Source: Candidatus Rokuibacteriota bacterium
Lineage (GTDB): Bacteria > Methylomirabilota > Methylomirabilia > Rokubacteriales > CSP1-6
Assembly: GCA_003220225.1 (NCBI GenBank)
Contig: QHRU01000034.1
Coordinates: forward strand, 1-64,000
DNA length: 64,000 bases
Direction: 5' to 3'
Shown: positions 40,986 to 48,201 of the stretch, piece by piece
Numbering within the stretch: position 1 is the stretch's first letter
Layout of the letters: every line of letters starts with the position of its first letter
Program-made: the position numbers and the translations under genes
Notes under the pieces: generated by a model
What the model was told of the DNA's origin: nothing
What the model saw: only the letters and a program-made list of their open reading frames with translations
Databases searched by the model: none

Positions 40986-41741
40986 TCAGGCGACCTGGAT
41001 GATCCCGGGCTCGAGTGGCTTGAAGCGCGCGGCCACCTCGGGATCGTGTCCGGTGACCACGCGCGCGGGGTCGCCGGCCAGCGCGTTGATCGTGTCGAAG
41101 CCCGCCAGCATCTCGGGCAGGTTCGTGATGATCTGCGTCGGCTGGTAGCGCTCGACGTTGCGGTAGAAGTGCGCGGCGTCGGACGTCAGCACCACGCGCC
41201 CGCGCGCCGTCTCCACGGAGACGATCTGCAGGCCCGCGGTGTGGCCGCCGACACGGTGGACGCGCAGGCCCGGCAGCACCTCGACCTCGCCCTCGACGAT
41301 GCGGAGGCGCTGGGCGTAATTGAGCGGGACGAGGTTGGCGAGCGCGCCGACGTTCTGCGACTGGCTGAACGCCTCGTACCGTCCGAAGCGTCCCGTCCAG
41401 AAGGCCACCTCGTCCTTCTGGATCCAGAACTCGGACGCCGGAAAGAGGCGGTGGCCCGCCCAGTGGTCGTAGTGGAGGTGCGAGATGAGCGCGATCGGGA
41501 TGTCGGCGAGCTTCACGCCCATGCGCTCCACCATCAGGGAGGGCCGCACGTAGTTGCGGATGCCGCGGCGCTCGACGTCGTCCTCCATGAAGCCGGTGTC
41601 CACCAGCACCGGATGCGGGCCGCCGAGGATCAGCCAGACGAAGTAGTGCAGCGTGATCGGGTCGTGCGAGTGCTCGCGGAAGAAGAACTGGCAGGCGGTG
41701 GTGTCGCGTTCGGCGTACTTGAGCGCGTAGATCTGGTACAT
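40986..41741 (-). CDS. Metallo-beta-lactamase fold hydrolase (N-acyl-homoserine-lactonase-like)
   Basis: 251 residues. The dinuclear zinc motif HLHYDH is in LISHLHYDHWAGH; the further ligands are His in VGGHTAG, Asp in LTSDAAHF and His in VVTGHDPEV, the arrangement of AHL lactonase-like enzymes. The start has an AAGGAAGGGA site, 11 bp after a CCTTATATAAGG palindrome that contains the stop of the preceding nucleotidyltransferase gene. It could be co-transcribed with the lasso genes, but a role in that pathway is not indicated. Confidence 0.88.
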   Translation of the reverse strand: MYQIYALKYAERDTTACQFFFREHSHDPITLHYFVWLILGGPHPVLVDTGFMEDDVERRGIRNYVRPSLMVERMGVKLADIPIALISHLHYDHWAGHRLFPASEFWIQKDEVAFWTGRFGRYEAFSQSQNVGALANLVPLNYAQRLRIVEGEVEVLPGLRVHRVGGHTAGLQIVSVETARGRVVLTSDAAHFYRNVERYQPTQIITNLPEMLAGFDTINALAGDPARVVTGHDPEVAARFKPLEPGIIQVA

Positions 41742-41751
41742 GCGGTCCCTT

Positions 41752-41763
41752 CCTTATATAAGG
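41752..41763. other. 12-bp perfect palindrome CCTTATATAAGG
   Basis: Contains the TAA stop of the nucleotidyltransferase gene and lies 11 bp before the metallo-beta-lactamase ATG. AT-rich in a very GC-rich background; could be an operator or a weak internal promoter element. Confidence 0.4.
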
Positions 41764-42875
41764 CGCAGCAGCCGGGCGGTGCCCTTGACGCCCTCCCACA
41801 GCACGTGGCGCGCGCGCCGGCCGTATGCCAGCGCCAGCCCGCCGCGTCCGGTCACACCGTACTCCACCGCCATGAATCGTGGCGACGGAAAGAGCAGCGC
41901 CGCGGCGTAACGCGCGCGGCGCCGGAGGCCCGGCAGCGCGAACAGCAGGGCGAGGCTCTCGCGGCCGTCCACGCCCGCGTCAGAGGCCAGCAGAGGATCG
42001 AGCGCGGCCCGGCCGGCCGCGTCCAGCGCGTCCAGGACGCGCGGCGGCAGCGGAGTGGCGAGCAGCGCGGCCACGCTCCGCAGCGCGGCGGCCACCTGGC
42101 GCTCGACGCGGGCGCCCCGCGTGAGGGCGAGCAGCTCGTCCCAGTCGATCGCCCCCGCGTCGCGCCGGACGAGGCGGTGGATGTCGAGCCGCCACAGCAG
42201 CGGCACGTCCGGCGCCTTGTGGACGAGGTGCAGGCAGAGATTGAGCAGCGTCGCCTCGGGGGCCAGCAGCAGCGCCGGCTCGCCGACGACGCGTCCGCGC
42301 CGGCAGCGCGCCCACACGCGCTCCATGTCGAGCGCGTCGGCGAACGGTGGATAGGCCAGCGTCCAGTGCGGCTCGACGACGACGCCGCCGTGGGCGTCGC
42401 GGGCGAGCTCCAGCGTGTACGAGAACTCGCGCGCGAACCCCGGGCGCCGGTCGATCGCGCTGAAGCCCAGCGCCGCGAGCGTCGCCTCGACGGCGTCGAG
42501 GTCGGTCTTGCGGACGAGGAGGTCGATGTCGCCGGCCGGACGAGCGGACGCATGGTCGTACAGCCGCTCGGCGAGCGCGGCGCCTCGCAGCGGCGCGCAC
42601 GCGATGCCCGCGGCGGCGAGCGCGCGGAGGATCGCGGCGAGCTCCGTCTCCAGCGCCAGCGCGCGTGCGGCGACGCCCGCGGCCGCCTCCCGGAGAGCCT
42701 CGCGCACGTCGTCCGGGGCCGCGGACGCGCTCCGCACGACCCGCCGGAAGAGCCACGGCTCGAGCCCCTCGGCCCGCGCCGCCGTCGCCGCGCGGCGCCA
42801 GTCCTCGGCGGTGGCCGACGCGGCCTCGTCGCCACGCAGCAGCGCCAGGAGCAGCGGGTCGGGCGCCGGCCTCAT
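41754..42875 (-). CDS. Nucleotidyltransferase family protein of the lasso cluster
   Basis: 373 residues of the uncharacterised nucleotidyltransferase family (NTP_transf_5 type). The active-site pattern is in ASARPAGDIDLLVRKTDLDAVEATL (GDIDLLV with the Asp pair) and VEPHWTLAYPP. Members often sit in lasso-peptide clusters next to an HPr-kinase-like gene; in pseudomycoidin such a protein (PsmN) was linked to adding hexose to the phosphorylated C-terminal Ser. ATG overlaps the kinase stop by 4 nt. Here the precursor lacks a C-terminal Ser, so the target is open. Confidence 0.87.
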   Translation of the reverse strand: MRPAPDPLLLALLRGDEAASATAEDWRRAATAARAEGLEPWLFRRVVRSASAAPDDVREALREAAAGVAARALALETELAAILRALAAAGIACAPLRGAALAERLYDHASARPAGDIDLLVRKTDLDAVEATLAALGFSAIDRRPGFAREFSYTLELARDAHGGVVVEPHWTLAYPPFADALDMERVWARCRRGRVVGEPALLLAPEATLLNLCLHLVHKAPDVPLLWRLDIHRLVRRDAGAIDWDELLALTRGARVERQVAAALRSVAALLATPLPPRVLDALDAAGRAALDPLLASDAGVDGRESLALLFALPGLRRRARYAAALLFPSPRFMAVEYGVTGRGGLALAYGRRARHVLWEGVKGTARLLRLI

Positions 42876-43804
42876 GCCGTCAGGTCCGCCTCGATCGCCG
42901 CGCGGACCTCGGCGAGCCGGCCGAGGCCGCGCGGATACGCGAGCGTCTTCACCGGCACCGCGGCGGCCACGCGCGCGGCGAGGTCGAACTGCCGCGCCAG
43001 CCGCGAGGCGTCGAGCACGCACGCGTTGAACGTGTTGCGCGTCAGCTCGACGAAGGCGCGGCGCGGCGAGAGCGGGCGGATGGCCACGCCGCGCCGCGCG
43101 GCGCCGGGACGCAGGACATAGAGCGCGCGCAGCGGCGCCGCGCCGCGCGCGCCGCGGGCGCCGAGCGGAAAGACCAGCTTGCCGCCGCGGTCGTTCATCG
43201 GCGTGCCGCGGAGGCCCGGGCCGAGCACGCGCGCCGCCGGCTCGGCGAACAGCTTGATGCGCGGCGGCCCCGGCGCGGCACGGAAGCCGTAGCCGGCGGC
43301 GCGCAGCACGAGCAGATCGTCCGTAAGCAGCGCGTGCCCCGCGCGCACGAACGCCGCGCCGAGCGTGGACTTTCCCCGCCCGCAGTCGCCCAGGAAGCCG
43401 ACGGCGCCTCCGCCCACCACCACCACCGCCGTCGCGTGCAACGGCTCCAGCCCGCGCGCGATGAGCGCGAACGACAGGACCTGGCCGAGCAGGTATGTCT
43501 CGAACGCGCGCGGCATCCTGGCCAGCCCAGGCAGAGGTCGCGCCACGATCCGGCGGCCGTCGGCGGCGACGAGGAACTCGAAGAGTCCCCGCCAGCGCAA
43601 GTATCGTCGCCGGTCGGACAGCATGCGGTCCTCGAACCACCGCCGACCGTCGAGGCGCGGGTGGAGCGTGCGGCGAACGGCGGCGAAGGCGGCCGCGCGC
43701 CCACGCGTGATCTCGACGTCCGCGCGACGGCGCTCGTGGCGCCGCACGCCCGGCAGCGGCATCGCGCTGCGCAGGCGCAATCCGTACAGCTCGCCCGTCG
43801 ACAC
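42872..43804 (-). CDS. HPr kinase-like lasso-peptide tailoring kinase
   Basis: 310 residues. The Walker A loop GFLGDCGRGKSTL and the Asp pair in ALLTDDLLVL are the HprK-type nucleotide site; PPRIKLFAEP and RGGKLVFPLG follow as in HprK-like lasso kinases. Such kinases (for example PadeK, ThcoK) phosphorylate the side chain of the C-terminal Ser of lasso precursors. GTG 43804 lies one base after the precursor stop. No SerB-like or PTS partner is nearby, so a role in sugar uptake is unlikely. Confidence 0.87.
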   Translation of the reverse strand: MSTGELYGLRLRSAMPLPGVRRHERRRADVEITRGRAAAFAAVRRTLHPRLDGRRWFEDRMLSDRRRYLRWRGLFEFLVAADGRRIVARPLPGLARMPRAFETYLLGQVLSFALIARGLEPLHATAVVVVGGGAVGFLGDCGRGKSTLGAAFVRAGHALLTDDLLVLRAAGYGFRAAPGPPRIKLFAEPAARVLGPGLRGTPMNDRGGKLVFPLGARGARGAAPLRALYVLRPGAARRGVAIRPLSPRRAFVELTRNTFNACVLDASRLARQFDLAARVAAAVPVKTLAYPRGLGRLAEVRAAIEADLTA

Positions 43805-43805
43805 G

Positions 43806-43949
43806 CTAGGCGCCTCCGGCCTTGGTCTTCATCCCGGAAGGCTCGGTCCTGGTCTTCATGTTGCCCCGGGTGAGCGTGCGGAGGTCTCCGAAGCGCGTCA
43901 GGCGCGGAGGCCGATAGGGCTTCCTGGTCGGGCGTGCGGGCTTGCTCAT
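43806..43949 (-). CDS. Lasso-peptide precursor (A gene), 47 residues
   Basis: Leader of 28 residues with the YxxPxL recognition pattern (Tyr12, Pro15, Leu17) for the RRE protein, Gly21, and Thr27 at position -2. Predicted core after Arg28: GNMKTRTEPSGMKTKAGGA, 19 residues. Gly1 and Glu8 are correctly placed for an eight-residue macrolactam ring. The tail has Met12, Lys13 and Lys15 as possible plug residues; the only tail hydroxyls are Ser10 and Thr14. The core holds an imperfect repeat (MKTR and MKTK). ATG 43949 overlaps the cyclase stop and has an AGGAG site 7 nt upstream. Confidence 0.87.
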   Translation of the reverse strand: MSKPARPTRKPYRPPRLTRFGDLRTLTRGNMKTRTEPSGMKTKAGGA

Positions 43950-45796
43950 CGCATCGCTCCTTTCACGAGGCGCTCGAGCCATCGGTCGACGGTCACGAGG
44001 GACCAGACCTCCCAGCGCAGATCGCCCTCGCCGCGGCGATAGCGCTCCACCAGCCGCGCGGCGCCGTCGGGATGCACGTAGCGGGCGAGCCGTCCCGAGC
44101 GGTTCGCGAGCGGCGCTCCGCTCTCGCAGACGCGCCTCAGCGCGCGGTCGACCGGCTCGGTCCAGTCGCCCTTGCCCCGCCGGTCGCGTGTGCGCGGCGG
44201 CAGCAGGTCGGCGGCGGCGGTCCGGAGGAGACGCTTGCGCGTACCGTGGCTGGCGCGCCCGCGCCACGGGATCGCGAGCACCAGCTCGACCAGCCGGCTG
44301 TCGAGCAGCGGGTAACGCATCTCGAGGCCCGCGCGGGCGGCCCGGCGCTCCTCGGCCTCGAGCTTGAGGCCGTAGTACGGGCTCGTGATCGACAGGTAGG
44401 TTTGCCACTGCACGTGGGACGGCCACGGCGCGTCGTGTCGCGGGGTCCTCACGCGTCGACGCAGACGTACGCGGCGCGCCATCTCGGCGTCCATCCAGCG
44501 CGGCGGCACGCCCCGGAGCAGCCGCTTGCCCCAGTACCGGACGGCGGCGGGCGCCAGCATCGCTGCCGCGTCGAGCCCGACCTCACGCGCCGAGGCGCCG
44601 TACGCGCGGGCGAACGCGCGCACCTCGCGGGAGAACCCGAGCAGGCGGCCCCCGCGCAGCAGGTCGGCCAGGTAGCCCGGCTCATCGAGGAGCTGATCGC
44701 CGCCCTCGCCGGACAGCACGACACGGCAGCCCGCGGCGCCGATCGCGTCGAGACACCCCGCCATGGTGTGATGGCTGGGATCGACGATCGGCCCGCCGGC
44801 CGCATCGACCTCGGCGTCGAGACCGTCGAGCGGATCAGCGTCGAGCCGGCGCACCGCGTGGCCCTTGAGCCCGGTCGCCTCCGTCACGACGCGCGCCGGC
44901 TCACGCTCGTCCCCGGCGGGGTGGTCGGCGAAAAGTGTGAACGTCTGCAGCGGCGGCGAGCCCTCCCCGCGCTCCTCCCACGTTCGCCCGGCGGCGCAGA
45001 CGATGGCCGAGGAGTCGAGACCGCCGGAGAGCAGCGCGCCCACCGGCCAGTCGGTGCGCAGCCGCGCCGCGACCGCCTCGCGAAAGACCGCGCGGACGCG
45101 CTCGACATACTCGGCGTCCGAGCCGAGCGTCAGCGTGCGCGTGGGATCCAGCGCCCAATAGCGAAAGCAACGCAGGCCGTCGCCATCGACGATCAGCGCG
45201 TGGCCCGGCGGCAGGCGGTGGACGTCGCGCACCAGCGTGCGGTTCTCGTCGCCCGGCCGGAACTCGCGCAGCAGGAGGGCGAGCACCATCTCGTCGTCCG
45301 GCTCGGGACCATCGAGCGCGCGCAGCAGCGGCTCGGCCTCGGACGCGAATCGGAAGACGCCCTGCCGCCACACGTAGTGGAAGGGCTTGAGACCGAGGCG
45401 ATCCCGCGCGCAGAGTAGCCGGCGGCGCCGCGCGTCCCACAGCGCCAGCGCGAAGTCGCCGAGCAGTCGCGCCGGCAGCTCGTCGCCCCAGCGCGCGTAG
45501 CCGCGGAGCACCACGGCCTCGTCGCTCTCGTCAGCGCCGGCCTCGAGCTCGTCCCGATTGTCGAGCCGGCCGTCCCATACGAGCCGGACGGCGCCGGACG
45601 TGTCGGCAGCGGGATGGCGCACGGCGAGCGACGCGCGAGTCGTCGCGAGCAGCCGGTGCGCGAGCCCGATGCAGGCGTCCACCCACACGCCCGCGGCGTC
45701 GGTGCCTCGGTGCGCGAGCGCCGCCGACATCGCGGCGAGCTCGGCGGCCTCCACGACGCCGCCGTCGAGCCGGTAGACGCCCGCGATGCCGCTCAT
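43946..45796 (-). CDS. Lasso cyclase / asparagine synthetase-like protein, copy 1 (C)
   Basis: 616 residues related to AsnB. N-terminal Ntn-type glutaminase-like domain starts MSGIAGVY: the nucleophile Cys2 of true AsnB (MCGIAG) is Ser, so ammonia production is not expected. The synthetase domain has the pyrophosphate loop SGGLDSS at 257-263 and SGEGGDQ, needed to adenylate a carboxylate. Lasso cyclases use this to activate the ring Glu/Asp for attack by Gly1. It directly precedes the precursor gene (4-nt overlap), which makes it the best candidate for the cyclase of that peptide. ATG 45796 overlaps the stop of the second copy. Confidence 0.88.
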   Translation of the reverse strand: MSGIAGVYRLDGGVVEAAELAAMSAALAHRGTDAAGVWVDACIGLAHRLLATTRASLAVRHPAADTSGAVRLVWDGRLDNRDELEAGADESDEAVVLRGYARWGDELPARLLGDFALALWDARRRRLLCARDRLGLKPFHYVWRQGVFRFASEAEPLLRALDGPEPDDEMVLALLLREFRPGDENRTLVRDVHRLPPGHALIVDGDGLRCFRYWALDPTRTLTLGSDAEYVERVRAVFREAVAARLRTDWPVGALLSGGLDSSAIVCAAGRTWEERGEGSPPLQTFTLFADHPAGDEREPARVVTEATGLKGHAVRRLDADPLDGLDAEVDAAGGPIVDPSHHTMAGCLDAIGAAGCRVVLSGEGGDQLLDEPGYLADLLRGGRLLGFSREVRAFARAYGASAREVGLDAAAMLAPAAVRYWGKRLLRGVPPRWMDAEMARRVRLRRRVRTPRHDAPWPSHVQWQTYLSITSPYYGLKLEAEERRAARAGLEMRYPLLDSRLVELVLAIPWRGRASHGTRKRLLRTAAADLLPPRTRDRRGKGDWTEPVDRALRRVCESGAPLANRSGRLARYVHPDGAARLVERYRRGEGDLRWEVWSLVTVDRWLERLVKGAMR

Positions 45797-47520
45797 GGCG
45801 TGAACGTCCGCCGCAGCCACGTCTCGAGCAGCAGGAAGCTCCACAGACGCGCGCCATGAGGCGCGCCGCGCGCCAGATACGCGTCACGCATCCGCTCGGC
45901 CTCCGCCCGGTCGACGTAGTCGAACACACGCGCGTCGGGGCGGAACAGGCCGCGCTCGAGCATCGCCGCGTCCCGGCGGAGCTGCGCGGCACCGTCGGGC
46001 GACGGCACGTGCTCCCCCGGGCGCTCGATCGTGCGCAGCGGCATCCGGCAGCCGAGGGCCCGCTGGACGAATTGCTTGCGGTATCCATGGCGTACGAGGA
46101 CGGCGGGCGGCGTGGCGAGGAAGCACTCGACGACCCGGCGGTCGAGATAGGGATGCCGCAGCTCGATGCCCAGCGCCGCGGACTCCGCGTCGAGCTTCTC
46201 GAGGGCCATCGTGAAGCTCGGAGCGGTCAGCGCACGCCAGCTGGCGGCCGCCATGCGCGTCTCGAAGCGTGGACCGCCACCCTCACCGGGCCACGGCCGC
46301 CGCGCCCGGGCCAGGCGCGGCCGCAGCCAGCGCGGCAGGCGTCGGAGCGCGAGGCGGCGCACCGCGCGGCGCGGACCCGGGGGCAGCGCGGTCCGGAGGA
46401 CGTCCGTGCTCGCGCGCCAGCCATCGTGCCCGTAGGCGCGGGCGAGCGCGGCGGCCTCGCGCCAGGCGCGGATCGGGCGCAGCGAGCCCAGGAGATCACC
46501 GATCGCGCCCCGCTCCGCGGCGCTCGACAGCTCGTCGCCGCCGATGCCGGTGAGCAGCACGCGGAACTCGTGGGCGGCGTCCGCGTCGAACAGCACCGAC
46601 AGTACCGGGTAGCCCTCGTCGTTCGGTGGCTCCGGAGAGGCGGTCAGAATCTCGAGGATGGAGACGTTCGTGCACGTGCGCGGCGGCGCGATGGCGCCGG
46701 CCGCCATGAGGAACGCGATCGCCTCCCAGTCCTCGGCCAGCAGCCCCTCGTGCAGGACGGTCGCGCTCGCCAGCGGTCTGGCATCCCGGCCGCGGACGGC
46801 GCCGGCCACGGCCGCGATCAGCGTCGAATCGATGCCGCCGCTCAGCAGCACGCCCGCCGCCGAGGCGTCGCTCAGGCGGTCGCGCACCGACTCGAGCAGG
46901 CAGGCGGCAAAGTTCGCCGCGTGGTCCTCCTCGCTGACGCCGGGCGCGGAGGCCGCGGGCCTCCAGTAACGGTGGAGCGACAGGCCGCGCTTGCCCACGG
47001 TGAGGACATGACCAGGCGGCACGCGGCGGATGCCCTCGAAGAACGTCGCGCCGGGATCGCGGAAGTCCATCAGGAGATAGTCGGCGATCGTGGACGCGTC
47101 GGGGCGTCGCACAACCGCTGCGTCCTCCAGCAGCGCGCCGACCTCGGAGGCGAACAGCAGACGGCGACCATCCCAGTGGTAATAGAGCGGCTTGACGCCG
47201 AACGCGTCGCGCGCGCAGAGGAGGGTCTTCGACCGCGCGTCCCACGCCGCGACCGCGAATTCGCCCCGGGCATGCTCGAAACGTGCCGGCTGATCGAGTC
47301 GACCGTCCCAGACGAAGACCCGTCCGTCGGTGTCCGCGAACGGCTGCTTGTCCTCGGGCGTTGCCGCCGCCAGGCGGCGATGAGCGAGACCGACCGGGCC
47401 CGCGACCCAGCGGCTCTCGCCGTCCGGACCCCGGTGCGCCAGCGCGCGCGCCATGCGGCCGATCAGCGCGGGGTCGGCCGGCCGCCCATCGAGGTGCACG
47501 GCGCCGGCGATGCCGCTCAT
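45793..47520 (-). CDS. Lasso cyclase / asparagine synthetase-like protein, copy 2 (C')
   Basis: 575 residues, a diverged paralogue of the adjacent gene. It also starts MSGIAGAV without the glutaminase Cys and keeps the pyrophosphate loop SGGIDST (227-233), but reads TGIGGDE where copy 1 has SGEGGDQ. C-terminal HGYRKQFVQRALG matches the region of copy 1 with HGTRKRLLRTAA. Both copies look intact. The second copy may form a pair with the first, act on another peptide or be a relaxed duplicate. ATG 47520 overlaps the B2 stop by 4 nt. Confidence 0.88.
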   Translation of the reverse strand: MSGIAGAVHLDGRPADPALIGRMARALAHRGPDGESRWVAGPVGLAHRRLAAATPEDKQPFADTDGRVFVWDGRLDQPARFEHARGEFAVAAWDARSKTLLCARDAFGVKPLYYHWDGRRLLFASEVGALLEDAAVVRRPDASTIADYLLMDFRDPGATFFEGIRRVPPGHVLTVGKRGLSLHRYWRPAASAPGVSEEDHAANFAACLLESVRDRLSDASAAGVLLSGGIDSTLIAAVAGAVRGRDARPLASATVLHEGLLAEDWEAIAFLMAAGAIAPPRTCTNVSILEILTASPEPPNDEGYPVLSVLFDADAAHEFRVLLTGIGGDELSSAAERGAIGDLLGSLRPIRAWREAAALARAYGHDGWRASTDVLRTALPPGPRRAVRRLALRRLPRWLRPRLARARRPWPGEGGGPRFETRMAAASWRALTAPSFTMALEKLDAESAALGIELRHPYLDRRVVECFLATPPAVLVRHGYRKQFVQRALGCRMPLRTIERPGEHVPSPDGAAQLRRDAAMLERGLFRPDARVFDYVDRAEAERMRDAYLARGAPHGARLWSFLLLETWLRRTFTP

Positions 47521-47927
47521 CGCGCCGGGACCGGGACGCCGACGATTGGCGTGTAGCCGTCGTCGATCGTATCGATCAGCGGTCGCCCGGCGCACTCGAG
47601 CCACGCGTGAGCGGAGAGCCGGTCGGCGTGTCGCGCGACGCCGATACGCAGCGTGGCGGGCGTCCCCTGCCACGCCAGGAGCCAGGCGGTCACCATCGCC
47701 ATCGGCAGACAGCGCGTCCCTGGGACGCGCCGGCCGGCGACCGTGACGAGCCACGCGACCCGCTCCGGCGCCAGCGCGGGGCGGCGCCGGCACGGGGACA
47801 CGGTCAAGAGTCGGCGGAGCGGGAGGACACGCAGCAGCAGCGGTGCGAGGGCGAGGAGCGCCCAGGCGAGTATCAGCGTTCGCCGCTCGGCCGGGCTCAG
47901 CCGCCGCAGGCTAGCGAGCCAGCCCAT
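47517..47927 (-). CDS. Lasso-peptide biosynthesis B2 protein (leader peptidase)
   Basis: 136 residues with a transglutaminase-like fold. The catalytic Cys73 is in VPGTRCLPMAM, His107 in RLSAHAWLECAG and Asp119 in PLIDTIDDG; CLPxA and HAWLE are standard in lasso B2 proteases. An N-terminal hydrophobic stretch (LILAWALLALAPLLL) is common in the family. It removes the leader at the Thr-x|Gly site. It overlaps the B1 gene by 17 nt. Confidence 0.93.
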   Translation of the reverse strand: MGWLASLRRLSPAERRTLILAWALLALAPLLLRVLPLRRLLTVSPCRRRPALAPERVAWLVTVAGRRVPGTRCLPMAMVTAWLLAWQGTPATLRIGVARHADRLSAHAWLECAGRPLIDTIDDGYTPIVGVPVPAR

Positions 47928-48201
47928 CGTCCAGCTCGACGAGCTCGTTGTCCCGCAGGGCCTCGAGGAACCGGGAGAGATCCGCTTCGCAGGTGTCGGC
48001 GGCGACCTCGTACTCGGCGGTCAGCGTCCCGACGATCTCGGCCGCCGAGCGGCCGCCGTCGATGAGTCCCCAGATGCGGCTGCCCACCGCATCGAGGCCG
48101 AAATAGACGCCTGTGCTGAGATTCAGCAGCACGAGCTCGCCCGCCAGGTCGCGGAAAACGACGTCCTTCCGGATGCGGGTGCGCGCCTCCCGGCCGGGCA
48201 T
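47911..48201 (-). CDS. PqqD-family RRE protein (lasso B1)
   Basis: 96 residues. PqqD-like winged-helix fold: VVFRDLAGELVLLNLSTGVYFGLDAVGSRIWGLID (read in parts) and AEIVGTLTAEYEV, then a helical C-terminal end FLEALRDNELVEL. In lasso systems this RiPP recognition element binds the YxxPxL leader motif and hands the precursor to B2 and C. First gene of the cluster; ATG 48201 lies 6 nt after a TAGGCT hexamer, so the operon mRNA may be leaderless. Confidence 0.92.
   Translation of the reverse strand: MPGREARTRIRKDVVFRDLAGELVLLNLSTGVYFGLDAVGSRIWGLIDGGRSAAEIVGTLTAEYEVAADTCEADLSRFLEALRDNELVELDDGLAR

Follow-up and report, generated by a model that had tools for sequence, protein, structure and literature searches.

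The seven closely packed genes that run from position 48201 to 41754 on the minus strand of the window (the whole stretch of 64,000 nucleotides analysed here) form a genuine lasso-peptide biosynthetic cluster, whose product can be predicted from the sequence and which encodes two unequal AsnB-like proteins: a lasso cyclase, C2, and a second protein, C1, that has lost the catalytic Lys yet is kept under purifying selection. C1 has probably been retained as a non-canonical partner of C2, a role that we infer from its pattern of conservation. The kinase of the cluster, K, probably phosphorylates a Thr in the tail of the peptide, the predicted site being Thr14 within a K-T-K motif.

The host, an uncultured bacterium of soil or groundwater, belongs to Candidatus Rokubacteria (Methylomirabilota), and its genome comprises 6.0 Mb in 167 contigs. 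A sequence-only reading of this DNA had described the gene set as a run on a single strand, and all seven frames are indeed open (Table 1), with the spacing it had given: in gene order from B1 to N, overlaps of 17, 4, 4, and 4 nt, a 1-nt gap, and a further overlap of 4 nt. Its assignments of B1 as a PqqD-like protein and of B2 as a protease with Cys73 and His107 are likewise borne out by the family matches and by the location of both residues. Apart from this B2, which also matches Transglut_core3 at 1.9e-21, the genome has none. For C2, the best NCBIfam match is the lasso cyclase family NF033535, at 402 bits and thus under the cut-off of 525. Because every part has a family match and the gene order recurs elsewhere, we count the locus as a lasso cluster. 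Downstream of N lies a gene for a metallo-beta-lactamase-fold hydrolase, which is preceded by a good ribosome-binding site and is possibly co-transcribed with the cluster as a member of the operon.

Table 1. The lasso-peptide cluster and its downstream neighbour, with positions in the window.
Feature	Coordinates	Strand	Matches
B1, PqqD-like RiPP recognition element, 96 aa	47911..48201	-	PF05402 2.8e-21; NF033536 lasso_PqqD 67.7 bits (under the cut-off of 80 bits)
B2, lasso leader peptidase, 136 aa, Cys73/His107	47517..47927	-	NF033537 lasso_biosyn_B2 83.6 bits (over the cut-off of 33 bits)
C1 (AsnB-1), AsnB/lasso-cyclase-like, 575 aa, shortened glutaminase half	45793..47520	-	PF00733 4.3e-31
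C2 (AsnB-2), lasso cyclase, 616 aa, SGGLDSS loop, Arg525 and Lys542	43946..45796	-	PF00733 Asn_synthase 2.8e-55
Precursor (A), 47 aa	43806..43949	-	NF033521 lasso leader 25.7 bits (cut-off 19)
K, HprK-like peptide kinase, 310 aa, GTG start	42872..43804	-	HprK match 1.2e-4; HprK/PEPCK fold
N, nucleotidyltransferase NTP_transf_5, 373 aa, GDIDLLV motif	41754..42875	-	PF14907 1.2e-50
Metallo-beta-lactamase-fold hydrolase, 12 bp downstream of N	40986..41741	-	PF00753 7.8e-13

The precursor consists of the leader MSKPARPTRKPYRPPRLTRFGDLRTLTR and the core GNMKTRTEPSGMKTKAGGA. The leader contains YRPPRL, an instance of the YxxPxL motif, and has Thr at position -2, while the core carries Gly1 and Glu8, from which a G1-E8 macrolactam is predicted; all of these features had been read from the sequence before, and the lasso-leader score, which exceeds its cut-off, agrees with them. 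The C-terminal residue of the core is Ala. The predicted lasso has M 1902.94 (core minus water), to which phosphorylation would add 79.97. The precursors of related loci share the leader and a KT[KR] tail, and the cores predicted for the other two-cyclase clusters likewise have Gly1 and Glu8 (GGAKNRSE, GARKTKVE, GGAQNKNE, and GGGLVRNE over the first eight residues). The idea that a second precursor might account for the presence of two cyclases was discarded, because a leader scan of the full window returned this precursor as the only leader-like ORF.

The order B1-B2-C1-C2-A-K-N is found in the window, in two other Rokubacteria genomes (L034 in G019 and L036 in G013), and in an Acidobacteria MAG (L055), where a transposase-like insert separates C1 from C2; a damaged sister locus occurs in G001, a genome of the same genus as the host. 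By eye, the inserted ORF (L055:6984-7961) is of the REP-associated type, with many short repeats around it. Since other genomes share this order, and since dN/dS between the cluster and the same-genus G001 locus is 0.22-0.34, the arrangement reflects more than chance. These values, the open and tightly packed frames of the window, and a gene order conserved across two phyla also argue against the cluster, or C1, being a decaying remnant without a product. We regard such decay as very unlikely, even though the same-genus locus has lost its core and part of C2, the cluster lacks an exporter gene, and the genome encodes no close homologue of the exporter of its relatives, the best match to that of L034 being a 34% ABC protein elsewhere. 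In the damaged locus (L042, positions 1000-1300 and 1709-1725), the precursor terminates at the end of the leader, with the core deleted, and C2 lacks about 250 nt, whereas B1, B2, and C1 remain open, as does most of K; these losses reflect either decay of that cluster or an artefact of metagenome assembly.

The exporter bears on another earlier claim, that the cluster is complete. The cluster contains no ABC exporter gene, as had been noted, nor does the rest of the window, and the seven genes are intact, but in related loci (L034 and L050) K and N are separated by a gene for an ABC exporter, 1.9 kb long in L034, so that completeness is doubtful. The product may be exported by another transporter, or it may stay inside the cell. 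More widely, B2 is present in 28 of 99 relatives, and kinases of the same close clade, taken as those that score above about 340 bits, were found in Methylomirabilota, Nitrospirota, Acidobacteriota, and one Desulfobaccales MAG. A scan of genome contigs with K confirmed at least five loci, and scans of Desulfobacterota and Nitrospirota added one. One locus (L080), at a contig edge, has C2-A-K-N.

Both C1 and C2 are AsnB-like, in line with their PF00733 matches and with the sequence-only reading; what did not survive is the notion of two equal cyclases. C2 retains the ATP loop and the catalytic Lys that characterize lasso cyclases, whereas C1 is without the Lys of the R-x-x-K loop that a competent cyclase would carry. 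In a column comparison with 24 other cyclases, the SGGxDS ATP loop is invariant, C1 included. The position of C2 Lys542, however, is occupied by E, V, Q, E, and S in the five C1 proteins as against Lys in 21 of the 24 other cyclases, and that of Arg525 by Gln in all five as against Arg in all 24. Residues other than Lys at the former position are also found outside C1, as Arg in the first cyclase of L050 and as a shifted Lys in L044. An independent alignment places no Lys of C1 opposite Lys443 of beta-lactam synthetase, the catalytic Lys of that enzyme. It is the absence of both the catalytic Lys and the invariant Arg from all five relatives that leads us to conclude that the two cyclases are not equals. 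Loss of the Glu of the AsnB motif SGEGxDE, by contrast, is not specific to C1, this residue being absent from many single lasso cyclases too.

C1 is not drifting. Its dN/dS of 0.32, similar to those of B1 and B2, indicates purifying selection, and some residues are invariant specifically in C1 (Glu499, Gln486, and an FVQRAL motif), both of which lead us to regard it as maintained. C1 and C2 form separate single clades, with support of 100/99 and 100/100, respectively. Scores above 870 bits against the C1 profile were obtained only for the four two-cyclase genomes among 95 in the phylum, and once in 396 Acidobacteriota genomes, a scan that yielded no further C1. The fold of the C1 AlphaFold model matches those of TsnB9, AsnB, and beta-lactam synthetase.

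The fully kept PP-loop and the C1-specific invariants, which suggest a new function, would also suit a C1 that is active through another residue and carries out a second reaction, such as formation of another amide bond, amidation of the C-terminus, or just an activation step. We consider this rather unlikely, given that the catalytic loop contains no Lys at all and that the tails hold no conserved second acid. The loop itself (residues 499-506) is one of the two least confident stretches of the model. A more specific version of the partnership between C1 and C2, which we put forward tentatively and would not bet on, is a two-subunit cyclase in which C2 provides catalysis and C1, as a pseudo-cyclase, holds or pre-threads the precursor, while the kinase of this subfamily marks the tail Thr in K-T-K; C1 would then be a separable folding subunit. 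In the open-access literature that we searched, we found no report of two-cyclase lasso clusters or of a second, catalytically altered cyclase.

Two further candidates for cyclase pairs were rejected. One protein (L033_Ca) starts with MCGI, as expected of a glutamine-using Asn synthetase, and the two L050 cyclases (L050_Ca/Cb) are by their tree a recent tandem duplicate rather than a C1/C2 pair. The latter flank their precursor (L050:2189-6510), with Arg at the catalytic Lys position in the first, and may possibly represent an independent start of active/inactive pairing.

K is weakly recognised by sequence (HprK_rel_A of NCBIfam at 2e-7, Hpr_kinase_C of Pfam at 1e-3, and HprK in the PDB at 1.2e-4). 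Its AlphaFold model, with a pLDDT of 89, finds structures of HprK and PEP carboxykinase, two enzymes that share one fold. His123, Lys145, Asp162, and Asp163 do not vary among 19 homologues, and a His-Lys-Asp-Asp motif has been reported to be catalytic in lasso kinases (PMC9266682). The proposed pairing of a kinase with a nucleotidyltransferase is real, as is their adjacency, but the paeninodin- or pseudomycoidin-type tailoring that was proposed along with it does not fit. Those systems modify a C-terminal Ser (PMC9266682), which is impossible for the present core with its final Ala, and a C-terminal Ser is found in only 1 of 13 cores paired with close kinases. An ordinary cluster of that type, with K and N acting on the C-terminal residue and with two AsnB-like proteins that serve as interchangeable cyclases, would share the K and N families (PF14907) and the conserved HprK catalytic residues that we observe. 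It is nonetheless highly improbable in our view, since to the C-terminal Ala are added the loss of the catalytic Lys and of an invariant Arg from each of the five C1 proteins and the separation of C1 and C2 into old clades.

HprK-like lasso kinases act on precursors, helped by B1, and one of them, BsfK, phosphorylates the ring residue Ser3 of BsfA (PMC10368454). This experimental precedent, from an A-B1-B2-C-D-K-N cluster with a core ending in Asp (PMC10368454), could be followed here, as the core contains Thr5 and Thr7 within the predicted ring. We nevertheless find a ring site unlikely. Although 8 of the 13 cores have a Ser or Thr in the ring, the other five do not, among them those of L055 and L080, two of the five with Gly1 and Glu8, whereas all 13 have a tail Thr or Ser before Lys or Arg. 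This [TS][KR] motif extends to [KR][TS][KR] in 10 of the 13. Shuffled tails gave means of 5.7 and 0.74 for the shorter and longer motif, respectively, and the observed counts exceeded those of all 20,000 shuffles, a result whose significance is overstated inasmuch as the motif was picked after inspection and the precursors are related. The tails are moreover rich in K and T, and cleavage and ring positions are ambiguous in two of the loci (L046 and L097). Conservation of the tail motif, set against C-terminal Ser and ring Ser/Thr that are not conserved, points to phosphorylation of the tail Thr; we regard it as a strong lead to the site, not as proof.

Together, these observations are compatible with the following predicted series of steps. 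B1 would bind the leader of the precursor, and K would phosphorylate a core hydroxyl, most likely that of Thr14, before the leader is removed. N might next decorate this phosphate, by analogy with PsmN, which reportedly decorates the phosphate set by the kinase. B2 would cleave after ...LTR, upon which C2 would adenylate Glu8 and join it to Gly1. C1, with its ATP loop and without the catalytic Lys, would be maintained as a partner of C2 that is non-catalytic or otherwise repurposed, serving for instance as a scaffold or as a subunit for folding. As an account of the whole operon, with K marking a core hydroxyl (Thr14 being likeliest), C2 closing the ring, and C1 assisting, we hold this explanation with moderate confidence.

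By its working and its kinship, the locus belongs with the kinase/nucleotidyltransferase lasso clusters, and the closest in logic is bsf from Bradymonas sediminis (PMC10368454). Both have A, B1, B2, C, K, and N and a core without C-terminal Ser, and the bsf kinase targets a Ser inside its precursor with the aid of B1, an internal target being predicted here too. They differ in that bsf has a single cyclase, an ABC exporter, and Ile at -2, and in that its phosphate lies in the ring (Ser3), while here it is the tail that carries the conserved hydroxyl. The pseudomycoidin cluster (psm) of Bacillus pseudomycoides also combines an HprK-like kinase with a nucleotidyltransferase, but it modifies a C-terminal Ser (PMC9266682), unlike the present cluster with its terminal Ala and two AsnB-like proteins. 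The paeninodin cluster (pade) shares the split B1/B2 and an HprK-like kinase with the His-Lys-Asp-Asp motif, and differs in having C-terminal Ser phosphorylation, no N, and one cyclase. The closest kinases, at 45-54% identity, are those of single-cyclase K/N clusters in Methylomirabilota, Nitrospirota, Acidobacteriota, and Desulfobaccales (for example L038, L054, L093, and L097), which have the same tail [TS][KR] motif. These clusters differ in having one active-type cyclase (in L050, the recent tandem pair) and a predicted residue 1 that is mostly Ala, Ser, or Thr with Asp8, as opposed to Gly1-Glu8.

According to a review, no crystal structure of any lasso cyclase exists (PMC13352647). A natural pair, in which one copy is without the catalytic Lys yet under selection, would allow ring closure and the folding of the peptide that precedes it to be tested separately. 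If the tail site is correct, the tail would join the C-terminus and the ring as a known site of lasso-peptide phosphorylation. The loci also provide a defined set of targets in phyla for which the literature searched contains no report of two cyclases.

Several other loci of Methylomirabilota deserve mention. One (L049:8291-11394) has two tandem B1-B2 pairs with one cyclase and one kinase. The precursors of L037, L041, and L045 are lasso-like and have a Cys-Leu ending, for example SGTQSLGDAGPMMMPGCL, and their clusters have, or sit near, more distant kinases. Finally, L022, L024, L027, L028, and L051 contain short ORFs whose leaders, PYTKPTLTKHKPLRDIT, are nearly identical and whose tails are very short; these ORFs lie near B1-like genes, in two copies in some loci, and apparently represent a separate RiPP group in this phylum.
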